Shown here piece by piece: positions 6,286-9,200 of a stretch of DNA of 64,000 nucleotides (position 1 is its first letter; every line of letters starts with the position of its first letter). A program made the translations under genes and the position numbers. The notes under the pieces were generated by a model. The model had not been told where the DNA came from. It searched no databases and saw nothing but the letters and a program-made list of their open reading frames with translations. The stretch lies in assembly GCA_025356815.1 (NCBI GenBank), contig JANXQL010000088.1, forward strand, positions 1-64,000. The letters run 5' to 3'. The DNA comes from Pseudomonadota bacterium (lineage in GTDB: Bacteria > Pseudomonadota > Gammaproteobacteria > Steroidobacterales > Steroidobacteraceae).

Positions 6286-9200
6286 TCAGACGGCCTCGAT
6301 CTTGCCGTGGCAGTGCTTGTACTTCTGCCCCGAGCCGCACGGGCAGGCGTCGTTGCGACCCACGTCGGTCGGGAACGACGGCTCCTCGGCCGCGAGCTGG
6401 CCGTGACACTGCTTGTATTTCTTGCCGGAGCCGCACGGGCAGGGCTCATTGCGGCCGACCTTGGGCAGCGCGCGCTGGAACGGCGCCTGCTGGGCAGGCG
6501 CCGGCGCACCGCCAGGCTGGCCGCCAGCGGCCACGACCGCCGGATCCGCGCCAAGGTCCAGGGACGGTGGCGCCGCGTGCTGGAACTGCATGAGCTTCGC
6601 GAGGCGCGCCTGGCGCTCGGCCTCTTCGGCCTCCATGTCGGCCTCCGAGCGCACCTGCATCCGCGACAGCATCGTCACGGCCGCGAACTTGATGCGGTCG
6701 AGCATCGCCGAGAACATCTCGAACGCCTCGCGCTTGTACTCCTGCTTCGGGTTCTTCTGCGCATAGGAGCGCAGGAAGATGCCCTGTCGCATGTAGTCCA
6801 TCGCACCGAGATGCTCGCGCCAGTGGCTGTCGACCATCTGCAGCATCAGCGTGCGCTCGATGCGACGCAGGTCGGTCGCCACGACCTGGGCCTCCTTGGC
6901 CCGATAGGCCTCGTCCAGAAGCTCAATCAGGTGCTGCTCGAGCTCGCGCGCATGGCGCGACTTGTCGGCATCGAGCCAGGCGCGGATGTCGATCTGGAGG
7001 CCGAAGTCGCGCGCCATGGCATCCTGGAGCACGGGCAGGTTCCAGTGATCCTCGATGCTCTCGGCCGGGATTGCCTGCGCGACGAGCGAGCTTACGACCT
7101 CGGCGCGCAGCGCGGTGATGGTGTCTGCGATGTCGTCGGCGGTCATCAGCTCGTTGCGCTGGCCGTAGATGACCTTGCGCTGGTCGTTGGCTACGTCGTC
7201 GTACTCGAGCAGGTTCTTGCGCAGGTCGAAATTGTAGGCCTCGACCTTGCGCTGGGCGCGCTCGATCTGGCGAGTCAGCAGGGAGCTCTCGATCGCCTCC
7301 CCCGCCTTCATGCCGACGCCGGACAACAGCGCCTTCATGCGCGTCGGGTCGCCGAAGATGCGCATCAGGTTGTCATCGAGCGACAGGTAGAAGCGCGACG
7401 AGCCCGGATCGCCCTGGCGGCCGGAGCGGCCGCGCAGCTGGTTGTCGATGCGCCGCGACTCGTGCCGTTCGGTGCCGATGATGTGCAGGCCGCCGGCGGC
7501 GACGACCTGTGCGTGACGCTGCTGCCATTCGCTGCGGGCACGCTCGAGCGTGGCGCTGTCCGGCGGCGGCGCGCCGGACTCCACCGGATCGGGGCGACCG
7601 CCGAGCACGATGTCCGTGCCGCGACCGGCCATGTTGGTGGCGATCGTCACGGCCCCCGGACGTCCCGCCTGCGCGACGATCTGCGCCTCGCGCTCGTGCT
7701 GCTTGGCGTTCAACACCTCGTGCGCAATGCCCTGCTTCTTGAGCAGGGCCGCGAGCAGTTCCGAGGTCTCGATCGAGGCCGTCCCGACCAGCACCGGCTG
7801 CTGCCGGGCCAGGCAGTCGCGGATGTCCTCGACGATCGCGTCGAACTTGTCACCCTGGCCGAGGTAGACGAGGTCCGAGTGGTCCTTGCGCACCATCGGC
7901 CGGTGCGTCGGGATCACGACGACCTCGAGGCCGTAGATCTGCTGGAACTCGTAGGCCTCGGTGTCGGCCGTGCCGGTCATTCCGGCGAGCTTGCCGTACA
8001 TGCGGAAGTAGTTCTGGAACGTGATCGAGGCGATCGTCTGGTTCTCTTCGCGAACCTCGACGCCCTCCTTCGCCTCGACCGCCTGGTGCAGGCCGTCCGA
8101 CCAGCGCCGTCCGGGCATCGTGCGCCCGGTGAACTCGTCGACGATGATGACCTCGTCGCCGCGGACGATGTACTCGATGTCCTTGTGGTAGATGCCGTGC
8201 GCACGCAGGGCGGCATTGAGGTGGTGCATCAGGCGGATGTTGCCCGGGTCGTACAGGCTGCCGCCATCGCGCAGCAGGCCAGCGTCCGCGAACATTTGCT
8301 CGACCGTGTGGTGACCGACCTCGGTCAGGTGCACCTGCTTCTGCTTCTCGTCTACCCAGTAGTCGCCGCCGACGGCGAGCGCGTCGCGCTGCTCGTCGCT
8401 CAGCGTCTGCAGCGACAGGCCGTGCACGACCATCGACACGCCGGTGCCCTCGACCTTGACCGCACCCGAGCCGGGGGCCTCGACCGAGACGGTATGCTGG
8501 CTGCGCTCGCGCCAGACCTCGACCTTGAGCGTGCCGGCAACCTTGCCGGACAGCGCAGTGGCGACATCCGCCGGTCGCGTGGCCGGACTGCCGCCGACCT
8601 TGAGGATCACATCGCCGCGGCGCAGGTCGCCCTTGAAAGTCGTGGCGTCGACGGCGGCGACATACAGGCCCGTGTCGACCGGTTCCTCGCTGCCGGCGCG
8701 CGACAGCTTAGGCACGAGCTTGTTGATCGACAGGTACAGCTCAGTGCTCTCCTCGGCCGGACCCGAGATGATCAGCGGCGTGCGCGCCTCGTCGATCAGG
8801 ATCGAGTCGACCTCGTCGACGATCGCGAACTGCAGCCCGCGCTGGACGCGATCCTCGAGACGGAACGCGAGGTTGTCGCGCAGGTAGTCGAAGCCGTATT
8901 CGTTGTTGGTGCCGTAGGTGATGTCGCAGGCGTAGGCCGCCCGCTTCTCGTCCTGGTTCTGGCCCGAGCGGATCACGCCGACGGTCATGCCCAGGAAGCG
9001 ATAGACCGGCGCCATCCAGTCGGCGTCGCGGCTGGCCAGGTAGTCGTTGACCGTCACGACATGCACGCCCTTGGCGGCGAGCGCATTCAGGTAGACCGGC
9101 AGCGTCGCGACGAGGGTCTTGCCCTCGCCGGTACGCAGCTCGGCAATCTTGCCCTGGTGGAGGGCGATGCCGCCGACCAGCTGCACGTCGAAGTGCCTGA

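Follow-up and report, generated by a model that had tools for sequence, protein, structure and literature searches.

SecA is an essential and strongly conserved motor, and its preprotein-crosslinking region (PPXD) is a moving part of the translocation clamp. In the E. coli protein, the PPXD from helix 3 to its C-terminus contacts SecYEG, and residue 263 has been cross-linked in vivo to the opposite protomer (PMC5603524). Lineage-specific inserts occur in the SecA proteins of thermophiles; one report describes 50 aa in NBD1 of Thermotogales/Aquificales and 76 aa in Thermales (PMC7023208). Among the ligands of HtrA PDZ domains are the C-terminal ends of proteins, for example the YxF of outer-membrane porins. 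These domains also make PDZ-PDZ contacts, which in DegP join protomers via PDZ1-PDZ2'; a carboxylate-binding motif in PDZ domains has the form R/K-XXX-G-Phi-G-Phi (PMC11642142).

The window (the whole stretch of 64,000 nt analysed) contains a secA gene in which these two systems come together (Table 1). Its product combines the Pfam domains SecA_DEAD, P-loop_SecA, SecA_SW, SecA_PP_bind and SEC-C with intact motor motifs (GEGKT at 104, DEVDS at 208, GRGTD at 605 and a further motif at 667), the full set that identifies a SecA translocase. It gives the only SecA match (n = 1) in the window's genome, which is 95% complete, and is therefore expected to be functional. The tandem SEC-C motifs at the C-terminus (window 6304-6453, minus strand) are found in part of genus g1, in proteins with and without the PDZ segment.

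Table 1. Coordinates of the secA gene of the window, of the parts of its insert and of related inserts.
Feature	Position	Strand	Description
secA	6286..9438	minus	one open frame, 1050 aa, GTG start, single copy, contains the insert
SEC-C zinc motif 1	6400..6453	minus	aa 996-1013, Pfam
SEC-C zinc motif 2, duplicated	6304..6360	minus	aa 1027-1045
Inserted segment, PPXD loop	8368..8694	minus	aa 249-357; alignment with insert-free and inserted orthologues, PDZ_2/PDZ_6
PDZ core (GLYV..GDVIL..helix)	8479..8676	minus	aa 255-320; 63-67 residues in 21/21 inserts
Variable linker	8425..8478	minus	aa 321-338; 7-28 aa across 21 inserts
19-aa C-terminal piece, equivalent to first strand and helix of HtrA PDZ	8368..8424	minus	aa 339-357
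IF-3 N inserts in SecA	L033:1303-1530, L028:3418-3642, L035:1291-1536, L085-L113		

Aligned by phmmer with E. coli SecA structures, the protein falls into two stretches, the first ending in RQEKED and the second starting with TFQGEGHF, with 14 residues between them in E. coli. These are residues 249-262 of the E. coli protein, the PPXD loop, and residue 263 is the first after the loop. The original prediction had placed some 100 extra residues at aa 249-357, inside the PPXD and between continuous SecA flanks, at a point where E. coli has about 14. All of this is borne out: the flanks are uninterrupted in one open frame, the phmmer alignment gives the 14 residues, and alignment with insert-free and inserted orthologues locates the segment in the PPXD. 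Codon-position base composition of the insert is that of the remaining secA.

A PDZ-like identity had been proposed for the segment. Family HMMs, a profile search and fold prediction all support it, as do 20 more inserts homologous to this one. Searched alone against Pfam, the window's insert matched PDZ_2 with an E of 7e-6 (26.7 bits, 0.3 under the curated cut-off) and PDZ_6 with 1.6e-5, and PDZ_2 was matched by 21/21 homologous inserts (best E 3.1e-10). A 21-row profile of the inserts retrieved from the PDB a DegP-like protease with an E of 1e-15 over positions 17-118, as well as MucD, DegQ and DegP; the DegP-like alignment begins in the PDZ1 core, crosses the linker and ends at the start of PDZ2. 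An AlphaFold2 model of aa 240-372, based on five aligned sequences (pLDDT 73.5, pTM 0.70), has its elements in PDZ order: two strands and a helix, then two long and two short strands, and a last helix. When this model was compared with the PDB by Foldseek, the top matches were PDZ-containing (GRASP65, 8.7e-4; RseP PDZ2; DegP; MucP), with modest TM-scores of about 0.4-0.6. A model of the whole PPXD with its insert (aa 215-485), made from a two-sequence alignment, reached a pLDDT of 40, too low for use. Altogether, these data leave little doubt that the PPXD insert of the window's SecA is a PDZ domain, its fold being a predicted one. The carboxylate-binding motif is incomplete in the inserts, with the first Gly present in 18/21 and the second absent; MucD PDZ2, which reads LGLSL, likewise lacks the second Gly. 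This makes canonical binding of C-terminal peptides less credible and leaves the assignment as a PDZ fold unaffected.

The nearest PDZ protein in the window's genome is a MucD/DegP-like protease (G000:C142), matched over 103 of 115 profile columns with 69.8 bits (iE 2e-21); no other PDZ protein of that genome had a stretch scoring above 30.1 bits. Different parts of the insert resemble different domains of this protease. The half carrying the WRDR strand is nearer MucD PDZ1 in 21/21 inserts, whereas PDZ2 is the nearer domain for the first half of the core in 16/21. The terminal 19-aa piece is nearer the PDZ2 start in 19/21, with low scores in many of them. The C-terminal piece of the insert profile aligns with LGLSLRPLSPAEKRAVGID of MucD, and moving the final piece ahead of the core, into the native order, raised the MucD PDZ2 match from 42.9 to 54.2 bits, compared with 42.5-50.3 bits in 20 shuffled controls. 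In sequence, the equivalent of the PDZ N-terminus comes after the core, as in a circular permutation; its packing onto the core is predicted by AlphaFold2 only. Going by these alignments, the insert is PDZ material cut mid-domain from a tandem PDZ1-PDZ2, in a permuted register. Its ends correspond to the joint between the first helix and the second strand of an HtrA PDZ, and the old ends are bridged by the variable linker. A mid-domain cut yields a permuted register with ends lying close together, and is thus suited to insertion in a loop. Since all carrier genomes searched have retained their MucD gene, the insert is a copy, presumably of the PDZ1-PDZ2 part of a MucD protease from the same family; the MucD/DegP-like protease of the family is the probable donor lineage. 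This family-specific tandem-PDZ protease (G000:C142:2953-3558; L068, L135) gives strong matches family-wide and weak ones elsewhere in the order.

The distribution of the insert was surveyed in 217 genomes of the family, using the insert and its SecA flanks as query. A match was obtained in 189, and 21 of these were full-span: nine in genus g1, seven in g7, three in g29 (all its genomes) and two in g10. The remaining SecAs of the family match piecewise; where their sequence was read, the site holds 11-25 residues. No other full-span match to the PDZ insert occurred among 370 genomes sampled across the class and 398 across the phylum; mapped on SecA orthologues, the insert is patchy and within one family only. 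Viral contigs, when scanned, produced one distant SecA fragment and no match to the insert. One carrier is on public record as an uncultured proteobacterium (CAIYLH010000108.1). Among all SecAs read by sequence, the site measures 11-12 residues without insert and 104-122 with PDZ, the exceptions among insert-free proteins being two genera and one further row with 17 residues and another genus with 24-25. Ordinary SecA length variation was rejected, given that site lengths are clustered and that full-span matches are lacking in the class and phylum samples; neither this nor the absence of a PDZ fold, the two outcomes named as fatal to the original prediction, was what we found. An assembly artefact was rejected as well, the frames being open in 21 genomes of four genera and no other SecA being present in the window's genome. 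Shorter expansions of the PPXD loop, with no recognisable domain, were seen in L127, L064 and L128 of genus g38 (24-25 residues) and in L062 and L066 of genus g31 (17 residues).

In other families of the order, 64-74 residues lie between the same two SecA flanks. These are IF-3 N-terminal domains: Pfam IF3_N was matched by 17/17 scanned (best 2e-18), and a profile of the inserts retrieved IF-3 from the PDB with an E of 5.7e-16. A query spanning such an insert gave about 90 full-span matches in 298 matching genomes of the order, from families f4, f6, f7 and f15, and none of the full-span matches of this order-wide query came from the window's own family. Family f8 contains one more carrier. The single full-span match among 276 class genomes is itself a member of the same order. 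The presence of PDZ and IF-3 N, two unrelated domains, at one site indicates that the PPXD loop accepts domains in this order.

Selection on the insert is purifying but relaxed. In the pairs where it was computable, dN/dS ranges between 0.13 and 0.73 for the insert and between 0.06 and 0.19 for the rest of SecA. As to function, the original prediction proposed that the PDZ could take part in substrate, chaperone or partner recognition. The reading that we prefer to a passenger or a regulator of oligomerisation, while holding it tentatively, is that of an accessory docking module placed beside the clamp and a reported SecA-SecA contact. The PDZ would project from the mobile PPXD next to the preprotein clamp and near the protomer contact, away from the SecYEG-contacting part (helix 3 to the C-terminus), so that SecYEG would not be blocked. 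It would dock a partner, be it a chaperone, a client tail or a second SecA protomer, on the motor, and the ATPase core would be unchanged. Because the carboxylate motif is incomplete in the insert and in the parent MucD PDZ2, docking via a surface or a non-canonical groove would be likelier than classic tail capture. The docking reading is weakened by the faster evolution of the insert relative to the rest of SecA and by the many relatives that do without it, which mark it as dispensable over evolutionary time. No partner was found either: SecY C-termini, considered as PDZ ligand, did not differ consistently between SecAs with and without the insert.

The incomplete carboxylate motif also makes a serious rival of the possibility, to which we give somewhat less credence, that the PDZ is a tolerated passenger. 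The PPXD loop would then be a spot on the surface that tolerates insertions. The PDZ, and likewise the IF-3 N domain, would be a folded decoration with no specific role, retained only for the rarity of clean deletions. Raised dN/dS, patchy occurrence with many insert-free relatives and the finding of two unrelated domains at one site all lean in this direction. However, every computable pair has an insert dN/dS below 1, and two of the pairs from G006/G009/G014 have values near 0.13. Moreover, the core is nearly constant in length and the C-terminal piece is exactly 19 aa in 21/21 inserts, length variation being confined mainly to the linker, and two residue pairs, Trp-Arg in the WRDR strand and DV in GDVIL, are invariant across strongly diverged inserts. 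Alternatively, and by analogy with DegP, the PDZ might alter dimerisation or the PPXD swing by intramolecular or SecA-SecA contacts instead of capturing clients. We consider this unlikely, even if the insertion site borders the E. coli residue cross-linked in vivo to the opposite protomer (position 263; PMC5603524), protomer contacts of DegP run through PDZ1-PDZ2' (PMC11642142), and the insert mixes PDZ1- and PDZ2-like halves.

In a SecA tree from which the insert columns had been dropped, the carriers are scattered, with 8 changes of which at least 5 are forced by well-supported branches. A single carrier clade on this backbone was rejected (p-AU 8e-77); thus, simple vertical descent from one recent ancestor fails. 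The tree of the inserts themselves largely follows the genera, and for most inserts the top-scoring MucD is that of genus g1, g7 and g10 carriers included. A Trp following GD[YF] (window 8356-8358, minus strand) is present in 21/21 carriers, 0/26 IF-3 N carriers and 11/38 insert-free SecAs. It is common to the g7 and g10 carriers, absent from their sampled insert-free congeners, and would mark a tract of recombination or else be a residue that packs against the PDZ. Compared at the sequence level, the inserts are one homologous family present in four genera. This family may have arisen once, then been lost in places and passed on with a short stretch of secA, a history that fits the data. The insert would have spread and been lost via recombination within conserved secA sequence; the scatter of carriers may come from gain plus losses or from segment transfer. 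Several independent PDZ captures, one per genus, in place of one insert family moved or lost, would agree with the rejected carrier clade and the genus-by-genus insert tree, but are improbable in view of the like boundaries and shifted register, the WRDR half nearest PDZ1 throughout, the best scores of g7 and g10 inserts with g1 MucD, and the Trp shared by the carriers of these two genera.

A search of the open-access literature found no description of a SecA carrying either a PDZ or an IF-3 domain. Natural SecAs with a PDZ or IF-3 domain, of 100 residues in the former case, show how far the PPXD tolerates extension, and they are natural insertion mutants for tests of PPXD movement and SecA dimerisation. 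They also suggest links, so far unrecognised, of export with envelope quality control and with translation. More speculatively, the PPXD loop could be a modular docking slot in this order, where ready-made interaction domains (MucD-type PDZ, IF-3 N) would bring the export motor together with new partners, a generalisation we regard as rather doubtful. If it holds, the PDZ might for instance recognise exported envelope proteins and the IF-3 domain contact the small ribosomal subunit; the IF-3 N-bearing SecA may be the more far-reaching case.

Canonical SecA (SecA1 of E. coli; PDB 2fsf, 5k9t, 6s0k) shares all Pfam SecA domains, the motor motifs and SEC-C with the protein of the window. The latter differs in having about 110 aa with a predicted PDZ fold in place of the 14-residue PPXD loop, and two SEC-C motifs instead of one. 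The inserts of thermophile SecAs are lineage-specific and in-frame, as is the PDZ insert, but the 50-aa one lies in NBD1, not in the PPXD, and the consulted passages of that report identify neither with a known domain taken from elsewhere (PMC7023208). IF-3 N-bearing SecAs have the identical PPXD insertion point and a different fold. In the permuted PDZ domains of the RseP, GRASP and Ctp type, the ligand-loop strand is placed after the core, the same as in the SecA insert, and GRASP65 and RseP PDZ2 were among its best Foldseek matches. In sequence, however, the insert is nearer to HtrA PDZ domains, with 69.8 bits for MucD versus 18.6 for the best stretch of C43, a two-PDZ frame that is probably RseP. 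Its closest sequence relative is the tandem PDZ1-PDZ2 of HtrA/MucD/DegP, with the same WRDR strand and the same LGLSL..LSP.E.R start of PDZ2. The insert differs from these proteins in its rotated domain order and in having no protease domain; it is also located within a domain of a cytosolic motor, whereas theirs form the C-terminal part of a protease in the periplasm.
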